Assembly (NCBI GenBank): GCA_024405215.1
Contig: JAKSPB010000018.1
Coordinates: 1 to 62,454 of the forward strand
Direction: 5' to 3'
DNA length: 62,454 nucleotides
Source: Lentisphaeria bacterium
GTDB lineage: Bacteria; Verrucomicrobiota; Lentisphaeria; Oligosphaerales; Oligosphaeraceae
The first letter of the stretch is position 1. Each line of letters opens with the position of its first letter. Positions 2,814 to 49,400 of this stretch are shown piece after piece. Made by a program: the position numbers and the translations under genes. The notes beneath the pieces were generated by a model. The model was not told the origin of the DNA, did no database searches, and saw nothing but the letters and a program-made list of their open reading frames with translations.

Positions 2814-3240
2814 AACCGACTTACTCAAACGCCAGCTTAAGGCGCTTGAGACAATGGACATAAAAACGCTTCAGGCAAAATTTCTGGAACTCTATGGCTA
2901 CGAAACGACAGCCAGGAATGTCGATGCCCTGATTCGGCGCGTGGCATATCGCCTGCAGGAATTCCACCTCGGGGGACTTTCCGAAGAGGATGCCGAATTT
3001 CTGGATGAACTGGCGGAAAAGGACGACCTGGCGAATCTGGTGAATGCTCCAGCGGCAAAGGCGAGGAAAAATGCAGGGACGCGCTACGTCCGCGAATGGC
3101 ATGGCAAGACATACGAGGTCATCTTCCGCGAGGATGGAAAATACGAACTGGAGGGGGCGTTCTATTCGTCGCTCTCTGCGGCGGCGTTCGCCATCACCGG
3201 GACTCACTGGAACGGGAAACTCTTCTTCGGGGTAAAATGA
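2800..3240 (+). CDS. DUF2924 family protein
   Basis: A 146-residue protein. Start ATG 2800 is preferred over the upstream 2770 ATG because a GAGGG site lies about 10 bases ahead. The C-terminal 55 residues carry the DUF2924 signature: YVREWHGKTYEV, then a GAFYSSLSAAAFAITGT block and a final HWNGKLFFG. DUF2924 genes are known to sit immediately before recombinase genes in phage and integrative elements of many Proteobacteria and PVC bacteria; molecular function is unknown. The stop overlaps the recombinase start (ATGA), so the two are co-translated. It probably assists or regulates recombination. Confidence 0.85.
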   Translation: MKINKTDLLKRQLKALETMDIKTLQAKFLELYGYETTARNVDALIRRVAYRLQEFHLGGLSEEDAEFLDELAEKDDLANLVNAPAAKARKNAGTRYVREWHGKTYEVIFREDGKYELEGAFYSSLSAAAFAITGTHWNGKLFFGVK

Positions 3241-4553
3241 TGATTAAGAAACAGACCGCAAAAACAGAAGAGCGCGCCGCGATGAAGCGGTGCGCCATCT
3301 ATACCAGGAAGAGCGTAGAAGAAGGACTTGACATGGAGTTCAACTCCCTGGATGCCCAGCGCGAGGCCGGCGAGAACTACATACTGAGCCAGAAAAGCAA
3401 AGGGTGGGTATGTCTTCCGCAGCGCTATGACGACGGTGGCTTCTCCGGAGGAAACATCAACCGGCCGGCCCTGACACAGCTCCTGGTTGACTGCGAGGCC
3501 GGAATGGTGGACGTCATCGTGGTCTACAAGATCGACCGGCTCAGCCGTTCCATATGCGACTTTGCCGACCTCACCAAGAAGTTCGACCGCTGGGGCGTTT
3601 CTTTCTGCTCGGTTACGCAGGATATCAATACGGCGACAAGTTCAGGCCGCATGATGCTCAACATCCTGGTGACTTTCGCGCAGTACGAGCGCGAGATCAT
3701 CGGTGAGCGCATCAGGGACAAGATGGAGGCGACAAGGCGCAAGGGACTGTGGTGCGGAGGATGCGTCGCCACCGGCTATACGCTCAAGGACAGCCATCTT
3801 TATCCGAATCCTGATGAAGTGCCGGTTGTGCAGCGCATCTTCCGGCGCTATGCCGAATGCCAGTCGGCCAAGACCGTTGCGATGGAGCTGAACGCGGAGG
3901 GAATCAAGACCCGGACAGGCTTCGAATGGAACAAGCCGCGGATCTACCGCATTCTCAACAACTATGCCTACATCGGCAAGGTGGAGCACAAGGGAACCGT
4001 CTATGACGGGGTCCACGAGGCAATCATAGAGCAGGAACTGTGGGACAGAGTCCACGAATATCTTGCCGACAACATCAACGGCGAGAGGCCGGACCAGACA
4101 GTCCGCCTGGAAAACATCTCGCCGCTCAAGGGAATCCTGCGGTGCGGCAGCTGCAACGGTCCGATGATAGCCTATTCCAGGAAGAAGAAGGGGAAGGTCT
4201 ATTCCTACTTCAGATGCATCAAGGATTCAAAGCGGGCGGAAAGCACATGCCCTGTCCGTGAAATATCCGCCCCCGTTGTGGAGAAGTTGGTATGCGACCA
4301 GCTGTCTGCCGTGTTCCGCGCGCCCAGGGTGCTTGCGGCCCTCACCGAGATGGCGGGCGTCGAGGCTGCGGCGATCCTGCCCGTCTTTGACGGCGAATTC
4401 TGGCGCGAGGCAACCAGCGCGGAGACCAGGCGCATCATCGGGCTTCTCGTCGCAGGGGCGGCCATTTACGCGGACAGGCTCGAGCTGGAAATCCGAAGCG
4501 AGGGAATCAAATCAATCATGGAGGAAATCGAGAATGAGAACAATCAAGACTGA
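3237..4553 (+). CDS. Large serine recombinase
   Basis: A 438-residue site-specific recombinase. Residues about 17-160 form the resolvase catalytic domain: CAIYTRKS with the nucleophilic serine, the helix motif FNSLDAQREA, and KIDRLSRS. Next is the recombinase DNA-binding domain (about 175-290, including a NNYAYIGKVEHKG segment) and a zinc ribbon with CGSC (near 303) and later C..ESTC cysteines (about 330-340), then a short coiled C-terminus. This family catalyses integration and excision of phages and elements between short att sites. The start at 3237 overlaps the DUF2924 stop by four bases (a second ATG follows at 3240). The usual 450-550 residue length of the family makes this a short but complete-looking member. 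Confidence 0.93.
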   Translation: MMIKKQTAKTEERAAMKRCAIYTRKSVEEGLDMEFNSLDAQREAGENYILSQKSKGWVCLPQRYDDGGFSGGNINRPALTQLLVDCEAGMVDVIVVYKIDRLSRSICDFADLTKKFDRWGVSFCSVTQDINTATSSGRMMLNILVTFAQYEREIIGERIRDKMEATRRKGLWCGGCVATGYTLKDSHLYPNPDEVPVVQRIFRRYAECQSAKTVAMELNAEGIKTRTGFEWNKPRIYRILNNYAYIGKVEHKGTVYDGVHEAIIEQELWDRVHEYLADNINGERPDQTVRLENISPLKGILRCGSCNGPMIAYSRKKKGKVYSYFRCIKDSKRAESTCPVREISAPVVEKLVCDQLSAVFRAPRVLAALTEMAGVEAAAILPVFDGEFWREATSAETRRIIGLLVAGAAIYADRLELEIRSEGIKSIMEEIENENNQD

Positions 4554-5539: not shown

Positions 5540-5893
5540 TGGTGGAGGCGGCGGGAGTTGGACCCGCGTCCTAGAGAGACCTCGCGTGAACTTCTACATG
5601 CTTATCCCGAGCTTTGGTCTTAGTCCGTCGATTTGGTGCCGGGCGCCCGTCAACGGAAGCAGCGTGCTGTGCTATCTCGCCTGTGCCCCCCGCCTGCCCG
5701 GGGGCCAATTGCCAGCCTGATGCTTGCGCCTCAGTCCACTATCAGGTATGATGGAGGAGACGTCGCAGAACTAAGCTGCGAGTGCGTACTCAGTGTTCGC
5801 AGTTACTTTTTTGACCGATGATTTAGGAGGCCAACGATCATCCTCCGCATGCTATCCACGGTCTGCCTTTCCAGTCGAGACCGTTTCGCCCCC
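5540..5893 (-). ncRNA. ssrA: tmRNA (transfer-messenger RNA)
   Basis: A 354-nt tmRNA. The 5' end (GGGGGCGAAACGG, 5893-5881) and 3' end (CGCCTCCACCA, encoded CCA at 5540) form a 7-bp acceptor stem with one G-U pair, and the T-arm (GGACGCGGGTCCAACTCCCG) is present next to it. The tag reading frame is at 5800-5771: resume codon GCG, then codons giving the nine-residue tag ANTEYALAA and a TAG stop; the ALAA end is the known ClpXP/FtsH degradation signal. It rescues stalled ribosomes with SmpB. Standard one-piece tmRNA. Because tmRNA genes are common integration targets, its closeness to the recombinase element is notable. Confidence 0.96.
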
Positions 5894-6048: not shown

Positions 6049-8070
6049 CTATTGGGCTTGGCGATTGCGCCATTCAGGCCTTCTGCGTGGAGCCGTTGCG
6101 GGATTCATCCGCCGTTGCTCCACATCTCCCCGGACGCCGGGACGGGGAGTGCCTCCGCGCTGGCGCCGCTGCGGCAAATCCGGTTTCAGGTCGGAATCCA
6201 GATAGAACTCCTTGAGCGGCCTGTAGCCACGCAGGGCCATCAACTCGTCCCACTTTTCGGGAAGGACAATCCTGATCGTGGCCGTCCCCCCGCCGGGAAG
6301 GCACATTTCCTTGTTCCGCGCCTCGTCGCCGGTGACCAGGAAGGCGCTCTTTCCCTTCTGCATGGCGGGCACGGTCTCTATGGTCTCCTTTCCAGCCCAC
6401 GCCAGCCAGGGCGGCGTCCGAGTCGTCGCGGCGTTTTCGGCCTGCGCGATCTTCTCCTTGTGTTTCTCCAGGGAATACGTCTCACCCTTGAAGGCGCTTC
6501 CCGGATTTCCCCAGTAATTGGCGAATGCGCGGCTTTCCAGCGGAACCCGTGCCGTCTTGACCAGAGCCTCCTCCAGAGCCTCCTTGGAGGGATAGCCGCA
6601 AGCAAGATTCCGTGCCACATCGGGAGTGAGCAGGAAAGTTCGGTTCACGCAGGGCATTCCGCTGCCAAGGGCCATCTGCTGCTTTTCGACGGCATCCCAG
6701 GCGACCATGTCCATGATTTTCCCGGCATCGGAAGCAGCCGGCACAAGATTGTTGCCCCAGTTGATGGCCGAAGCGGCCGTCAGAGTGGATTCATTCAAGG
6801 CGTAGCCGCACTGCATCTGGTAGGGCTTCCAGCCGATTTTCAGCGCGGCCTCTTCATTCTCCGCGATGCACCAGGGCACCAGATAGCCGACAGTCCCCTT
6901 CCGGTTCTCCTTGACATTGTTCCCGCCAAGATTGATGAGCGCCAGGTTGATGAATCGTCCCAGCACAGCGTTGCGCGGATGGGAGACCTCCCCTTGTCCG
7001 CAGTCGAATCCAAGCTGCCTGGCGACAGGGCCATTGAGCCAGCAGTACGGGGTCCAGGCATGGGTCGAGACAAGCGGCCGCCGGAAATCGCCATTCTTCA
7101 TGGCCTCGACAAAAGCCAGCAAGAGAGGCATGAACTCCGGTGGGCACCCCGCCATCACACCATTGATGGCGACATGCCGCACGGTAACGGAGCGCTGTGC
7201 GGGCGGGATTTCCCCCAGGACCCTCTCGGGCGGAAGATCCGTGAACTCCAGGAACTCCGCCACGGCAGCCTCTGTCGGCGGAATGACAGGCAGCCCATCC
7301 GTCCATCCGGAATCCAGGAAGATCCGCTGGATTTCCGTCAGCGTCCCGGAAAGGTCCCCGAGCCTTTCCGACGTTGCCCCATCCAGTTTTTCGGCTTCCT
7401 CCAAAGGAGTGGTAAGCGCCTGTTTGATCTGCGGCCACAGGATTCGTCGTGTGTTGTCCAGCAATTCCTCATGGGCATGGGAGGCGAATGCCCCCGGATA
7501 CTCGGCCACGCGCAACGCGGCGATTCCGGCAGCGTATGCGGTCTTCTTCGCCTGTTCCACAAAACCTGGTCCTGCGATCATGACACTGGGAATGCCGAGC
7601 ATCTCGGCCGCAATGCAGGAGCCCGTTTCCTTTGGCGTGCACAGTCCGCAGCCGCCATTTCCGGAAATGACGGCATCCACATGCAGCTCCTTCAAGCGTC
7701 GCTGGAACTCGTCCTTCTCGTGGCGCACGACGCCTGGCCTGGGATATGGTCCAGCCGAACCGATTTCCGCAAGAAGATGGACCTTTGCGGTGGGATACTC
7801 CGCCAGCAGCAAGCGCTTCAATTCCGGATGCGTGACCGACGCCATGAAGCTGCCGCCCACAATGGCGACGGTCTTGCCGGCCAGCGTATCCAGCCGCGCA
7901 CCCTGTTCCATAGGCGCGATCTTCGCCTCCGGCACAGGAGCAAGAACTGTGTATTCCGTTTCCGAAGGATTTGCGGCAGGAAGAAAGCACATCCCCTCCG
8001 TACATTCAAGTTCCTGCCCCCAAAGAAGCCCGGTCCATACCAACAAGAGAAACAACGCTGTCTTTTGCAT
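6049..8070 (-). CDS. Exported UGSC-like (CxxC) protein with C-terminal companion domain
   Basis: A 673-residue protein; ATG 8070 is chosen because GGAGG lies 7 bases upstream and it begins a signal peptide (MQKTALFLLLVWTGLLWGQ). Residues about 60-210 resemble the UGSC-type family: GKTVAIVGGSFMASVTHPEL, a predicted Rossmann-like start, and the redox-type motif SGNGGCGLCTPKE, where members of that family have selenocysteine or cysteine in U/C-GSC. The C-terminal half starts with IFLDSGWTDGLPVIPPTE and continues through GVMAGCPPEFMPL, a domain known from proteins encoded beside UGSC selenoproteins; here the two are fused. Enzymatic role unknown. The last about 35 residues are Arg-rich and low complexity. 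Divergent from oadG. Confidence 0.7.
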   Translation of the reverse strand: MQKTALFLLLVWTGLLWGQELECTEGMCFLPAANPSETEYTVLAPVPEAKIAPMEQGARLDTLAGKTVAIVGGSFMASVTHPELKRLLLAEYPTAKVHLLAEIGSAGPYPRPGVVRHEKDEFQRRLKELHVDAVISGNGGCGLCTPKETGSCIAAEMLGIPSVMIAGPGFVEQAKKTAYAAGIAALRVAEYPGAFASHAHEELLDNTRRILWPQIKQALTTPLEEAEKLDGATSERLGDLSGTLTEIQRIFLDSGWTDGLPVIPPTEAAVAEFLEFTDLPPERVLGEIPPAQRSVTVRHVAINGVMAGCPPEFMPLLLAFVEAMKNGDFRRPLVSTHAWTPYCWLNGPVARQLGFDCGQGEVSHPRNAVLGRFINLALINLGGNNVKENRKGTVGYLVPWCIAENEEAALKIGWKPYQMQCGYALNESTLTAASAINWGNNLVPAASDAGKIMDMVAWDAVEKQQMALGSGMPCVNRTFLLTPDVARNLACGYPSKEALEEALVKTARVPLESRAFANYWGNPGSAFKGETYSLEKHKEKIAQAENAATTRTPPWLAWAGKETIETVPAMQKGKSAFLVTGDEARNKEMCLPGGGTATIRIVLPEKWDELMALRGYRPLKEFYLDSDLKPDLPQRRQRGGTPRPGVRGDVEQRRMNPATAPRRRPEWRNRQAQ

Positions 8071-8311: not shown

Positions 8312-8542
8312 ATGTTCAAGAGTGCAGCCATCATCATGCTCTTCGGCATGGGCTTCGTCTTCGTCTTCCTGTGCATCCAGGTCGTCATCACCACCGTATT
8401 CGCCAAGCTGGCGGGCAAATTCGCCTATCTTCTGCCCGAGCCGACGAAGGCGGCCCCCAAGAAGCCCGCAGCCGCCAAGAGCGACGATGCCGCCACCGTG
8501 GCCGTGATCGCAGCCGCCCTGAAGCAGAGCGGTCGCCTCTAA
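8312..8542 (+). CDS. oadG: Oxaloacetate decarboxylase gamma chain (Na+ pump)
   Basis: A 76-residue protein with one N-terminal membrane helix (about residues 4-30, SAAIIMLFGMGFVFVFLCIQ), then a Pro/Ala/Lys linker and a short cytosolic tail, matching the size and shape of OadG subunits. OadG holds the alpha (cytosolic carboxyltransferase) and beta (membrane pump) subunits together. AAGGG lies about 9 bases before the ATG. It is the first gene of oadG-oadA-oadB; the gap to oadA is 64 bases. Confidence 0.88.
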   Translation: MFKSAAIIMLFGMGFVFVFLCIQVVITTVFAKLAGKFAYLLPEPTKAAPKKPAAAKSDDAATVAVIAAALKQSGRL

Positions 8543-8606
8543 TTCCCCATTTTCCTCTTCCAATCAATCCACAACCCATTATTCCCTTTCCAGGAGAAAA
8601 TCCATC

Positions 8607-10430
8607 ATGAAAAAGATCCGTTTCCTCGACACTTCCTTCCGTGACGGCTTCCAGTCTGTCATCGGCGCCCGCGTGGTTTCCAAGGACTTCATCCCCGCCA
8701 TCGAGGCGGCGGTCGAAGCCGGCTGGAAGCATCTTGAGGTCGGCGGCGGCGCCCGTTTCCAGAGCCCCTTCTTCTACTGCGGCGAAGATGCCTTCGAGAT
8801 GATGGACACCTTCCGCAAAGTCGTCGGCCCCGAAGTCGAGCTTCAGACCCTGGCCCGCGGCGTCAACGTCGTCGGTCTATCCAGCCAGTCCAGCGACATC
8901 ATCGACCTTCACGCCAAGATGTTCAAGAAGCACGGCATGACCACCATCCGTAACTTCGACGCCCTGAACGACATCCGCAACATCAGCTACAGCGGCACCT
9001 GCATCCACAAAGCCGGCCTGAAGCACCAGACCACCATCACCATGATGGGCCTGCCTCCCAACATGAACACCAAGGCCCACAGCCCCGAGTTCTATGTCGG
9101 CATCCTGATGAACATCCTGAAGAGCGGCATGCCCTTCGACTCCCTGTGCTTCAAGGACGCCAGCGGCACCTGCGCTCCCACGGTCATCTACGAGACCATC
9201 AAGAAGTGCCGCGAGATCCTGGATGCCGAAGGCAAGAAGGACTGCCCGATCGAAATGCACACCCATGACACGGCGGACATGTCCGTCCAGTGCTACATGG
9301 CGGCCATCGAAGGCGGCGCCGAGATCATCGACCTGGCCATGCGTCCCATGTCCGGCGGCACCAGCCAGCCCGACCTGCTGACCATGTGGCACGCCTTCAA
9401 GGGCACCGAATACACCCTGGACCTGGATCCCGAGAAGATCATGAAGGTCGAGGATGTCTTCATCCAGTGCATGTCCAAGTACATGATCCCGCCCGAAGCG
9501 AAGACCACCAACCCCCTCATCACCCTGTGCCCCCTGCCCGGCGGCGCCCTGACCGCCAACACCCAGATGATGCGCGACAACAACTGCCTGGACAAGTTCC
9601 CCGAGGTCGTCGCCGCCATGCGCGAAGTCGTCGAGAAGGGTGGTTTCGGCACCAGCGTGACCCCCGTCAGCCAGTTCTACTTCCAGCAGGCCTTCGCCAA
9701 CGTCATGCAGGGCAAGTGGAAGAAGATCACTCCCGGATACGGCAAGATGGTCCTGGGCTACTTCGGCAAGACTCCCGCCTCCCCCGATCCGGAGATCGTG
9801 AAGCTGGCCGCCGAACAGCTGAAGATGGAGCCCACCACCGAAGATCCCCGCGCCATCAACGACAAGGATCCCAACAAGGGCATTGAGCACTCCAAGAAGG
9901 TCCTCACCGAGAATGGCCTGCCCCTCACCGACGAGAACATCTTCATCATCGCCACCTGCGACGAAACCAGCAACCCCAAGGGCCTGAAGTTCCTGAAGGG
10001 CGAGCGTCCCATGGGCGTCCGTTATGCAGAAGAGGCTTCCGCCAAGAAGGCCGCCCCCGCCGCCGGTCCTGTCACCGTCAACGTCAATGGCACCGCCTAC
10101 CAGGTGAACGCCACCGCCGGCGCCAATGACACCGCCACCGTGGTCGTCAACGGCAAGACCTACAACGTCTCCTTCGGCGCCGCCGCTCCCGCAGCCGCCG
10201 CTCCCGCAGCCGCCGGCGCCGGCCAGACTGTCACCACTCCCCTCCCCGGCACCATCGTCCGCATCAGCGTGGCCGTCGGCCAAGCCGTGAAGAAGGGCGA
10301 CGAGCTGATGATCATCGAGGCCATGAAGATGGAGCAGCCCATCGTTGCTCCCGCCGACGGCACTGTGAAGTCCATCGCCGTCAACGCCGGCGACACCCTG
10401 GAAGCCGGCCAGACCGTGGCCGAGATCTAA
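8607..10430 (+). CDS. oadA: Oxaloacetate decarboxylase alpha chain / pyruvate-carboxylase-type carboxyltransferase with biotinyl domain
   Basis: A 607-residue cytosolic subunit that moves CO2 from oxaloacetate to biotin. Residues about 1-290 form a TIM-barrel carboxyltransferase: [10 protein letters not shown] near the start (usual form RDAHQS), FKDASG with the catalytic lysine near 185, and MHTHDT with the metal-binding histidines near 215. MSGGTSQP follows. The conserved carboxyltransferase domain runs to about 460, then an Ala/Pro-rich linker and a biotinyl domain with EAMKMEQ (biotin on the Lys, near 572). The change of RDAHQS to RDGFQS is unusual. AGGAG lies before the ATG. With OadB it couples decarboxylation to Na+ export. 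Confidence 0.92.
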
Positions 10431-10509
10431 TCGGAAAAGGCATCCTGTCTGGCATCCCGGGTCGTCTGGGAAGACGATGCGGGATGCCGAACAACTCGGA
10501 GAAAACGAG

Positions 10510-12165
10510 ATGAAAAAAACACTCCTCATCCTTTTGGCCGCAATGGTTTTCGGCGCCTTCATGCCGGCCTTTGCGGAGGACATGGCCCCAAGCGCTCTGA
10601 CGCAGGAGTCCGCTTCCCCCATCACCTTCAAGACCAACGACGGCGTCTTCGCCTGTCTCCAGGACAAGGAGACCGGCAACATCACCGTCAAATACGTCTG
10701 GCCCAACCCGGCCATCGTCTATCAGGGCAGCCTTCAGGTGGGCAAGGCCTACAAGCCCGGCCGTTCCATGGGCATCCTGAAGATCAAGGACATCTACAAG
10801 CAGGACGTCAACGGCCAGGAGATCCCCTCCCGAAGCAAGCCTGAGCTGAAGCTTGGCATCGGCGCCACCGTCATCTCCCTGGGCGAGAACTTCAAGCTGG
10901 GCCAGACCCTGAACGCCGGCGACGTGATCTGCGTCATGACTCCCAGCATCGTCACCCACGACTCCATCGCCAAGACCTCTGACGGCTTTACGCTGAACGC
11001 CGGCAAGATGCTGGACAATCTGTGGCAGTCCACGGGCATCAACAACTTCATCGCCATGAGCAAGCTGGAGTGGACCTTGGGCACCGGCCGCCTGATCATG
11101 ATCTGCGTCGGCCTTCTGCTGCTCTACCTGGCCATCTTCCGCGGCTTCGAGCCCCTGCTGCTGGTCCCCATCGGCTTCGGCGCCATCATGAGCAACATCC
11201 CGCTGGCAGGCATCGCCGGTCCCGACGGTCTCCTGGGCATCCTCTTCGAAGGCATCAACCTGGGTCTCTACCCGCTCTTCATCTTCCTGGGCGTCGGCGC
11301 CATGACGGACTTCGGCCCCCTCATCGCCAATCCCAAGACCGCGCTTCTGGGCGGCGCCGCCCAGCTGGGCATCTTCGGCGCGCTCTTCCTGGCAGTCTGC
11401 CTGAGCGAGTGGACTCCCTTCATCAACTTCTCCATGAAGGACGCCGCCTCCATCGGCATCATCGGCGGCGCCGACGGCCCCACCGCCATCTTCCTGGCCA
11501 GCCGCCTCTCCCCGAACCTGCTGGGTTCCATCGCCGTGGCCGCCTACTCCTACATGGCCCTGGTCCCCATCATCTTCCCGCCCATCATCCGTGCCCTGAC
11601 CTCCAAGAAGGAACGCCTCATCAAGATGAGCCAGCTCCGCAAGGTCACGAAGCTGGAGAAGGTCGTCTTCCCCATCGTCATCACCCTGCTCTGCTGCTTC
11701 CTGCTGCCTGACGCCGCGCCCCTCATCTCCATGCTGATGCTGGGCAACCTGCTGAAGGAGTCCATGTGCACCGACCGCCTGAGCGACACCGCCCAGAACG
11801 CCCTCTGCAACATCGTCACCATCATCCTGGGCCTCACTGTCGGCTCCAAGATGTCCGCCGACAAGTTCCTGCAGCCCGAGACCCTCGGCATCCTGCTCCT
11901 GGGCCTCTTCGCCTTCTCCATCGGCACCGCAGGCGGCCTGATGCTGGGCAAGCTGATGAGCAAGCTCTCCGGCGGAAAGATCAATCCGATGATCGGCGCT
12001 GCCGGCGTCTCCGCCGTTCCCATGGCGGCCCGCGTCGTGAACAAGGTCGGCCTTGCCGAGGATCCGCAGAACTTCCTGCTGATGCACGCCATGGGTCCCA
12101 ACGTCTCCGGCGTCATCGGCTCCGCAGTGGCGGCCGGTGTATTGCTGCAGGCCCTGGGGCACTAG
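10510..12165 (+). CDS. oadB: Oxaloacetate decarboxylase beta chain with exported N-terminal domain
   Basis: A 551-residue membrane subunit of the Na+ pump. The C-terminal about 370 residues (from [20 protein letters not shown]) match the OadB family with many membrane helices and the motifs [11 protein letters not shown] (with the Asp involved in Na+ and proton transfer) and [11 protein letters not shown]. Unlike usual OadB (about 370-430 residues), there is an extra N-terminal part: a signal peptide ([20 protein letters not shown]) and about 150 residues of predicted extracytoplasmic sequence, then a membrane helix near residues 195-215. ATG 10510 follows GGAG and is preferred to ATG 10477. 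A terminator lies at 12187-12228. Confidence 0.9.
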
Positions 12166-12186
12166 TTCCCGGTCTCTGATTCCTTA

Positions 12187-12228
12187 AAAGCGCGTGCCTG
12201 TATGCATTTCTTACGGCACGCGCTTTTT
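12187..12228 (+). terminator. Terminator of the oadGAB operon
   Basis: A 12-bp perfect inverted repeat (12187-12198 with 12215-12226, 16-base loop), AAAGCGCGTGCC and its complement, followed by TT; the flanking A and T tracts extend the stem. Confidence 0.85.
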
Positions 12229-12259
12229 AACACCAAAGACATTCTTTTTGAGAAACAAA

Positions 12260-13840
12260 ATGAAAAAGGTTCTCATTCCTACCAAACTGGACAAAGTCGC
12301 CGCCACCTATTTGACCCAGAAAGGCTACCAGGTCGTCCAAGACAGCGAAACCGATCTGATGGCCCTGTGCCAGGCCAACGCCGCTGCCGCGGCGCTGATC
12401 GTCCGCAGCGAGAAGATCACCCCCGAGATCATTGACCTGATGCCCCAACTGAAGGCCATCGTTCGCGCCGGCGCCGGCTTCAACACCATCGACATCAAGT
12501 ATGCCCGGCGCAAGGGCATCGACGTGATGAACACCCCCGGCGCCAACGCCAACGGCGTTGCCGAGGAGGTCTTTGCCATGATGCTTGCCGCCGCGCGCCA
12601 TCGGGTCGAGGCCGATAGCGGCACCCGTGCCGGCGGCTGGAACAAGAAGAAGTGCATGGGTCGTGAAATCACCGGAAAAACCCTAGGCATCGTGGGGCTG
12701 GGCAACATCGGCCAGCTGGTCGCCAAGCACGCGCAGGGCTTCAACATGACCCTCCTGGCATACGATCCCATCGTCGCCAAGAGCCGTGCCGACGAACTGA
12801 ACGTCACCCTGGTCAGCCTGGAGGAGATCTTCCAGAAGTCCGACTACGTGACCCTGCACATCCCCGAGAACAACGAGACCCGCGGCCTCATCAACGCAAA
12901 GCTTCTGGATCAGGCCAAGGACGGCCTGATGCTCATCAACTGCGCCCGTGCCGGCATCGTCGTGGAGGACGACCTCCGCGCCGCCAAGGCCAACAAGGGC
13001 CTGGTCTACTGCAATGACGTCTATCCGGCGGATGTCCCCGGTCCCAAGACCATTGCCGACGTGGCCACCATCATGGTTCCCCACTTGGGCGCCAACACCA
13101 AGGAAGCCAACTTCACGGCAGCCAAGCGCGCCGGCGAAGAGCTGGTGGAGTTCTTCGAGCAGGGCATCACCCGCTATGTCGTCAACAAGGACCTTCCCGA
13201 TGGGCTGGATCCCATCTACCAGCATCTGGCTTTCCGCCTGACCAGCGTCGCCCGCGCCCTGCTGGGCGAGAAGGCCAGCATCTCCGCCATCCGCTGCAAC
13301 TACTACGGCGCCCTGAAGCCCTTCGCCAAGTGGTTCACCGCCCCCATCACCGCCGCCCTGGCCGGAAACGTGGCCATCAACCTGACCGACATCACCCAGT
13401 CCCCCGAAGAGGCCACCGCGGCCCTCCAGGCCACTAGCACGCTTCTGGACGTCCGGGAAGCTGACGAAAGCAAGCACTACGGCAACGCCATGACCATCGA
13501 CCTGGAATCCACCGAAGGAATCGTCTCCCTCCGCGGAACTGTCGCCGAAGGCAAGCTGATCATCTCCCGCATCAATTCCTTCGAGAACATCTACATGCTT
13601 CCCGTGGGCCACCTGCTGCTGGTCGAGTACCAGGACCGTCCCGGCGTCCTCGCCAAGATCACCTCCTGCTGCGGCAATGCGGACATCAACATCGAGGACA
13701 TCCACGCTCCTCACGACACCACCGGCAAACGCTCCCTGGCGATTGTCTACACCGCCAAGCCCGTCCCCCAGGAAATGGTCGCGAAGCTGAAGGCCGACAT
13801 CGACGCCAGCATCGCCCTCTCCATCACCCTGCCGGACTAA
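12260..13840 (+). CDS. serA: D-3-phosphoglycerate dehydrogenase with ACT domain
   Basis: A 526-residue enzyme for the first step of serine synthesis (3-phosphoglycerate to phosphohydroxypyruvate, NAD+). The order is substrate domain, NAD domain with GIVGLGNIGQLVA (near 145), the catalytic Arg in NCARAG (near 232), the catalytic His in VPHLGANTKEA (near 280), an intervening (ASB) domain about 315-445, and a C-terminal ACT domain starting VEYQDRPGVLAKI for serine feedback. This is the long bacterial type (about 525-530 residues). ATG 12260 begins MKKVLIPTKLD; the longer frame from 12194 overlaps the terminator and is rejected. Confidence 0.95.
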   Translation: MKKVLIPTKLDKVAATYLTQKGYQVVQDSETDLMALCQANAAAAALIVRSEKITPEIIDLMPQLKAIVRAGAGFNTIDIKYARRKGIDVMNTPGANANGVAEEVFAMMLAAARHRVEADSGTRAGGWNKKKCMGREITGKTLGIVGLGNIGQLVAKHAQGFNMTLLAYDPIVAKSRADELNVTLVSLEEIFQKSDYVTLHIPENNETRGLINAKLLDQAKDGLMLINCARAGIVVEDDLRAAKANKGLVYCNDVYPADVPGPKTIADVATIMVPHLGANTKEANFTAAKRAGEELVEFFEQGITRYVVNKDLPDGLDPIYQHLAFRLTSVARALLGEKASISAIRCNYYGALKPFAKWFTAPITAALAGNVAINLTDITQSPEEATAALQATSTLLDVREADESKHYGNAMTIDLESTEGIVSLRGTVAEGKLIISRINSFENIYMLPVGHLLLVEYQDRPGVLAKITSCCGNADINIEDIHAPHDTTGKRSLAIVYTAKPVPQEMVAKLKADIDASIALSITLPD

Positions 13841-49262: not shown

Positions 49263-49400
49263 ATTATCCGCAACCGGTGAATCGCGGTGAAAATCCGTGG
49301 CTGTCGTGCAACCGTCATAGTCGGATCCCGGGGACTGGGCACAACAAGGCTTCCAGTCGATTCCAACATTCCCATTGTGCACGTAACGCAAGGAGAAAAA
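49263..49400 (+). ncRNA. Cobalamin (B12) riboswitch before a pseudopilin gene
   Basis: The conserved cobalamin riboswitch core is present: CGGTGAAAATCCG (49284-49297 area), then GGCTGTCGTGCAACCGT (49299-49315), with a GAATC segment just before. A closing stem is possible (ATCCG 49266-49270 with CGGAT 49322-49326), and GACTGG (49333-49338) pairs with CCAGTC (49353-49358). The L5 loop sequence CGTGCA (49305-49310) is the exact complement of TGCACG (49378-49383), which lies 6 bases before the ribosome-binding site AAGGAG (49390-49395). This is the known L5-L13 kissing-loop design for switching translation. The downstream gene begins at 49401. Confidence 0.85.

Follow-up and report, generated by a model that had tools for sequence, protein, structure and literature searches.

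A probably exported fusion of a UGSC domain with its companion in Lentisphaeria, and profile support for a distant kinship of UGSC with the selenocysteine domain of GrdB/PrdB

UGSC proteins rank with the commonest selenoproteins of marine metagenomes. They have been counted since 2008 as a major family of selenoproteins, with no function assigned (PMC2398784, PMC13188914). PMC2398784 (Zhang and Gladyshev 2008) describes a UGSC/Unknown_1 fusion and a supposed thioredoxin-like fold; on this showing the fusion of UGSC as such is already known, and Unknown_1 is a candidate match for the domain that we here call the companion. PMC13188914 places UGSC among thioredoxin-like-fold proteins with largely uncharacterised functions, and PMC9312934 lists UGSC without a function. 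Thioredoxin reductase and thioredoxin feed glycine reductase (PMC3091704). The open-licence literature, which covers few subscription journals, yielded neither a link between UGSC and GrdB/PrdB nor an exported form of UGSC.

The protein described here is encoded in a 62,454-nucleotide stretch of Lentisphaeria DNA (the window; contig JAKSPB010000018.1) and differs from each of its closest described relatives. Like the UGSC family (PF24696/NF041046), which has been fused to a conserved domain before, it carries its catalytic pair at the same position, but it is probably exported, has CGLC in place of U/C-GSC, bears an N-terminal Cys pair and scores under the NF041046 cut-off. With GrdB, PrdB, GrdF and GrdH (PF07355; the glycine, D-proline, sarcosine and betaine reductases) it appears to have a Sec/Cys domain in common by descent, aligned on UGTC, whereas its companion is unrelated to the pyruvoyl subunits, its predicted location is extracytoplasmic and it gives no PF07355 score. 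Cytosolic pairs in haloarchaea, Roseovarius, Arthrobacter, Variovorax and Paracoccus have the same two domains, adjacent or fused; unlike the exported protein they have no signal peptide by eye, often lie among TrxR-like, transporter and CoA-metabolism genes, and in some cases contain Sec.

The fusion gene occupies positions 6049..8070 of the minus strand, exactly where the first-pass annotation of this DNA had placed it, and encodes 673 amino acids followed by a stop codon; its own genome holds one copy. Read by eye, a clear ribosome-binding site (GGAGGAAAAATC, with GGAGGA) lies 5′ of the ATG at 8070. Residues 1–18 (MQKTALFLLLVWTGLLWG; 8017..8070, minus strand, as are all features of the gene) look like the signal peptide claimed in that annotation, given a best 12-residue hydropathy mean of 2.5 and a hydrophobic N-terminus in 30/30 distinct orthologue rows, and export of the protein is likely on these grounds. 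Directly after the signal peptide comes ECTEGMC with the Cys pair C23/C28 (7987..8007), followed by the UGSC domain (residues 42–220; 7411..7947), the companion domain (residues ~246–638; 6157..7335) and a basic tail rich in Arg, Pro and Gly (residues ~639–673; 6052..6156). The tails of several orthologues are similar in kind and unalignable. The protein contains 13 Cys in total.

Directly downstream of the fusion gene lies a tmRNA gene (tag ANTEYALAA; 5540-5893, minus strand), with a serine recombinase gene (Resolvase, Recombinase and Zn ribbon; 3096-4553, plus strand) nearby, which may mark an element integrated at this tmRNA site. Running divergently from the fusion gene, the plus strand at 8312-13840 encodes a sodium-pump decarboxylase in an operon (OAD gamma, biotin-bearing alpha and OAD beta) and, after it, a D-2-hydroxyacid dehydrogenase that bears an ACT domain. 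An AdoCbl-II riboswitch at 49265-49334 (plus strand) scored barely above the gathering score.

The UGSC domain matched Pfam PF24696 with 56.8 bits (E 4e-15) against a curated cut-off of 25 bits, confirming the family membership proposed from the sequence alone. Its 43.3 bits against the NCBIfam equivalog NF041046 (UGSC_fam) fall under that model's cut-off of 125, and the protein thus lies inside the domain family and outside the narrow NCBI group. GGCGLC, residues 139–144, is in register with the UGSC/CGSC of canonical members, as had been proposed, and its CGLC (C141-x-x-C144; 7639..7650) keeps both Cys of the U/C-x-x-C pair, with Leu for Ser. The supposed change from UGSC to CGLC needs qualifying: it does give a CxxC pair, but the U → C part is nothing special, since the first motif position is Cys in most homologues examined, and the real change, peculiar to the exported fusion, is Ser → Leu/Ile followed by TPKE.GSC. 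The Cys of GSCIAAE (C152; 7603..7623) is largely kept in the exported clade and is not general among other UGSC proteins; one orthologue (L011) has GSS in place of GSC. The codon for the first motif Cys is TGC in 36/43 exported loci and TGT in 4/43, duplicates included, with 3 loci lacking coverage, and an in-frame TGA occurs there in 0 of the 40 exported-clade loci whose motif can be read. No tRNA-Sec scored above the cut-off in the protein's own, 96.8%-complete genome, which has seven sub-threshold places; this is in line with the Cys form of the motif.

The first hint of the domain's ancestry was a sub-threshold NCBIfam match of the fusion protein to PrdB (E 0.054); a haloarchaeal UGSC protein matched GrdB, also sub-threshold, over the final ~90 model positions (E 0.0091). 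In an NCBIfam scan of 17 UGSC members, sub-threshold matches to glycine reductase B occurred in 6/17, to PrdB in four, to GrdF in three and to TIGR01918 and GrdH in one each, selenoprotein-B families making up five of the ten non-self families. The unrelated family TsaE was matched by one member at E 0.0017, which beats the best GrdB match (0.0054), and other unrelated families were likewise matched by single members. For profile comparison, GrdF, GrdH, PrdB and two alphaproteobacterial relatives were taken from plasmid records. In hhalign, the UGSC profile (17 sequences) aligned with the Sec-domain profile of GrdB/PrdB (9 sequences) at 95.2% probability (E 2.7e-8, score 59.7), which places CGSC over UGTC and Sec/Cys in register, and the exported clade alone reached 93.3% (score 60.8). 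With the CxxC motif masked, the scores were 43.9 (83.2%) for the UGSC profile and 40.3 (45.6%) for the exported clade; the maximum among 100 column-shuffled decoys was 22.9 and 25.2, respectively, and reversed profiles gave 16.0 and 16.2. As controls, UGSC matched the TrxA profile at 1.4%, the TrxB profile at 0.4% and the Gly_reductase family GrdG/PrdA at 19.6% with a score of 31.6, the last indicating that alpha/beta similarity of a generic kind can bring scores to about 30. Taken together, these profile comparisons give good support to a distant homology between UGSC and the domain that bears Sec in GrdB/PrdB, with the catalytic Sec/Cys at corresponding positions. PF07355 itself did not match the fusion protein at E up to 10; it matched 0/288 in the protein's own phylum, where the controls were also silent, so this count carries no claim of absence. 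A PDB sequence search returned nothing useful for either the UGSC or the companion profile.

In the full-length structural model (pLDDT 75.7) strands and helices alternate in the UGSC region, and C141/C144 lie in a loop that follows a strand. Foldseek alone gave no match to this model with an E as low as 0.001. Rossmann, CheY, B12-binding and PurE-like folds account for the top 50 structural rows (Z 8.4–11.2; rmsd 2.7–4.0 over 112–151 residues), and there is no thioredoxin fold among these 50, a list from which absence is no proof against a family. The TrxA profile, the Rossmann-like model and these rows make a thioredoxin fold for UGSC improbable. Of the ‘thioredoxin-like’ CGLC suggested earlier, the CxxC spacing stands, and a relationship to thioredoxin beyond it is not supported.

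To place the two domains among cytosolic relatives, we turned to plasmid records. By tblastn, the fusion protein found 24 records and a Paracoccus companion query also found 24. Of the 24 companion records, 22 were also matched by a UGSC query (E up to 10), which gave two further records at chance level; the Sporomusa record, outside those 22, contains a UGSC domain according to Pfam, and UGSC is therefore fused or adjacent to the companion in 23/24, Haladaptatus having a companion with no UGSC nearby. The companion is a near-constant genetic partner of UGSC. Among 19 plasmid loci examined, 12 have the two as adjacent genes, in agreement with the earlier statement that the domain with DGLPVIPPTE is elsewhere a separate gene. 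Six are fused (Acidovorax, Variovorax boronicumulans, Sporomusa, Vibrio and two Neorhizobium), in the order UGSC → companion in 6/6, and one has the companion alone; four haloarchaeal loci show a companion-UGSC-companion arrangement. Homologues with Sec at the motif position, envisaged in the first-pass annotation, do exist: an in-frame TGA occupies the first motif position in 2/19 loci, Paracoccus L053 and Acidovorax L046. In Paracoccus, selB lies ~3.3 kb beyond the companion, and the SECIS-like fold after the TGA is unremarkable (z −1.3). A TrxR-like gene is present in 9/19 loci, a raw count with no background rate in which several of the nine are interrelated, and trxA in 1/19; the Arthrobacter gene order is trxB-trxA-companion-UGSC. 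The Sporomusa and Vibrio fusions lack the motif Cys altogether (DMGTS).

Several further features of plasmid loci were noted in passing. The Cys-less Sporomusa and Vibrio fusions (L049 7323-9047, L051 7419-9104) adjoin genes for aconitase X and DUF126. The Arthrobacter UGSC protein (L058 9054-9869) has an extra C-terminal part that is NifU-like by eye, and a phosphosulfolactate synthase gene occurs in the Arthrobacter L058 and Natrinema zhouii L059 clusters. The Roseovarius L050 companion (gene end 9059) ends in DCADGVCAL, similar to the N-terminal DCxDGxC of many exported fusions, which suggests that the N-terminal arm may have a counterpart elsewhere. On a Peptoclostridium acidaminophilum plasmid (L074 7000-8985), a PrdA-like region (PF09338) and PrdB share one frame up to a TGA, which is in frame within the TAG-U-GTC motif of PrdB; from their sequence PrdA and PrdB look fused or overlapping here, a possible parallel to the UGSC-companion fusion.

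The companion, spanning the C-terminal ~390 residues, matched no Pfam, NCBIfam or PHROGs model. Viral and phage collections gave no relative. Ten diverse companions share the D, G, P, P and T of DGLPxxPPT (DGLPVIPPTE in the fusion, residues 258–267; 7270..7299), the Cys and Pro of MAGCxP (MAGC with C309; 7144..7155), the Gly of NGP, the N and R of NxxxGR, one Glu and a late Gly; in Neorhizobium L052, outside the ten aligned, the companion Cys is replaced by Ala. We rejected the companion as a pyruvoyl subunit of the PrdA/GrdE type (GrdG/PrdA profile only 0.1%) and as a GRDB relative (0.5% by profile). The residue ahead of the companion Cys is Gly, and the GrdG examined has at this place an Asn-Cys, which we take to be the processing site. 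Modelled alone, the companion gave a poor structure that matched no fold (pLDDT 63.8; best Foldseek E 2.2, best Z 4.3), and assignment to class I fumarase or the cyclic-amide hydrolases was rejected, with Z at most 3.7 on this model.

We next consider the distribution of the exported form. A search of relatives recovered the fusion in 11/59 genomes (its own included), all of the same family, and a UGSC search across the phylum was positive in 16/145 genomes (own included), each with a frame of at least 446 amino acids. Genome contigs yielded 15 loci, mainly from rumen and gut MAGs. Some carrier MAGs are labelled Thermoguttaceae, planctomycete or Bacteroidales; in the phylum of the Thermoguttaceae MAG that genome alone scored above the cut-off (1/199). 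The closest named relatives of the genome that encodes the fusion described here are ruminant MAGs of the Victivallales. Orthologues are 46–73% identical to the fusion protein and keep the motif and both domains, a conservation that, at such identity, points to more than chance. GGCG[LI]C is present in 40/40 loci covering it (43 loci in total). The N-terminal Cys pair occurs in 38/39 rows, the lone exception being truncated, and in 30/30 distinct rows, that is, the 39 minus 9 duplicates, with rows lacking the motif or the N-terminal half skipped. The L011 orthologue has by eye a lipoprotein-like leader (VITTAC).

In a companion-domain tree of 46 rows, 23/23 exported rows fall on one side of a branch with 100/100 support, and this branch is present in 100% of 200 bootstrap trees: the exported fusion forms one clade. 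The tree left out 20/43 exported loci, mostly duplicates or partial, and L023 and L027 were dropped from A3 as frameshifted or truncated. The nearest cytosolic row, Variovorax L048, sits on a long branch and its placement is unsure. The tree was used for the exported clade only; counts of changes for its two cytosolic groups were set aside because the ‘fused’ labels of L044_1, L058 and L060 are readthrough artefacts of a TGA that acts as a normal stop. Five fusion copies (L023, L027, L030, L035 and L052) are broken by frameshifts or an assembly gap, which may be real or assembly error. No conserved neighbourhood was found around the exported gene, and no TrxB or TrxA gene occurs near it in any of 16 loci (5.9–16.1 kb each).

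We propose that the fusion represents a two-component thiol/selenol enzyme brought together in one chain and exported, which works like the B component of glycine/D-proline reductase, a reading to which we give an even chance. The companion would bind a small substrate and position it at the UGSC active site, where the thiolate of C141 (Sec in relatives) would attack the substrate and break a bond reductively, and C144 would resolve the intermediate as a disulfide. Since C141/C144 are placed like the Sec-x-x-Cys of GrdB/PrdB, we infer, by reasoning from the analogy, a reductase mechanism of the same logic: attack, resolution and dithiol re-reduction. Electrons would enter by dithiol exchange, in cytosolic relatives presumably from the thioredoxin system. 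An exported protein would be out of reach for a thioredoxin of the cytosol. In the exported form, the N-terminal C23/C28 arm would be the donor, recharged by an extracytoplasmic route such as a DsbD-type protein, a natural guess given the Cys pair itself and the one DsbD_TM protein encoded in the genome. The genes for CoA-transferase and TRAP/TTT transporters beside cytosolic relatives weakly suggest small carboxylates or organic acids as substrate. Several observations count against the GrdB-like reading. The companion is unrelated by profile to pyruvoyl GrdG/PrdA, which means that the group known to activate the substrate is missing; the Cys-less fusions of Sporomusa and Vibrio indicate that the fold can serve without a thiol; the companion Cys is lost in Neorhizobium; and no TrxR or TrxA gene stands beside the 16 exported loci, which also share no neighbourhood. 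On the same side stand the lack of a PF07355 match, the score of 31.6 reached by generic similarity and the TsaE match that beats the best one to GrdB.

The Cys-less fusions beside aconitase X and DUF126 genes also lend themselves to another explanation, namely that the protein is a non-redox carboxylate enzyme (an isomerase, epimerase or hydro-lyase) to which the UGSC domain would contribute a general-base thiol or none, and which export would direct at an extracellular acid. Genes for CoA-transferase, CoA-ester lyase, enoyl-CoA hydratase and transporters beside other cytosolic relatives would suit such an enzyme, as would the very weak resemblance of the companion model to class I fumarase and cyclic-amide hydrolases; values of Z so low on so poor a model, however, may mean a common arrangement only, and the recurrence of Sec and of TrxR genes favours redox chemistry. 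We consider this explanation rather unlikely. A CxxC pair in an exported protein, with more conserved Cys at its N-terminus, could instead belong to a thioredoxin-like disulfide oxidoreductase whose CGLC exchanges disulfides with other extracytoplasmic proteins, and UGSC is called Trx-fold-like in PMC2398784 and grouped with Trx-fold proteins in PMC13188914. The profile probabilities (1.4% for TrxA versus 95.2% for GrdB/PrdB), the Rossmann-like model with CGLC in a loop after a strand, the Rossmann/CheY/PurE-like best 50 rows and a near-constant partner of 390 residues, which is not typical of a thioredoxin, make it improbable. Finally, the thirteen Cys and Arg-rich tail might suit a surface protein binding a soft metal or metalloid through the N-terminal Cys pair, CGLC and C152, with a structural companion, but we noticed no metal genes adjoining in the window or the loci examined (where most neighbours have no family annotation), UGSC relatives keep the CxxC alone and lie within carbon-catabolic clusters, and we regard this as very improbable.

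Returning to the GrdB-like reductase, a broader version of it can be put forward as speculation, with the chances clearly against it: UGSC would be a second branch of GrdB/PrdB-type reductases in which the pyruvoyl subunit was swapped for an undescribed partner, and one gut and rumen lineage would have joined the pair in a single chain, gained a dithiol arm and exported the product, giving an extracytoplasmic Stickland-like reductase. The finding is of more interest for the ancestry of UGSC than for the fusion itself. The placement with GrdB/PrdB, the near-constant partner and the recurrent TrxR neighbours offer a concrete, testable mechanism for the family, and the fusion, as a two-domain protein in one chain, is convenient for testing it. 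If the exported version is active, anaerobes of the rumen and gut would carry out GrdB-like chemistry outside their cytosol; and if it is indeed a Stickland-like reductase there, these organisms would dispose of electrons onto a substrate that is never imported.
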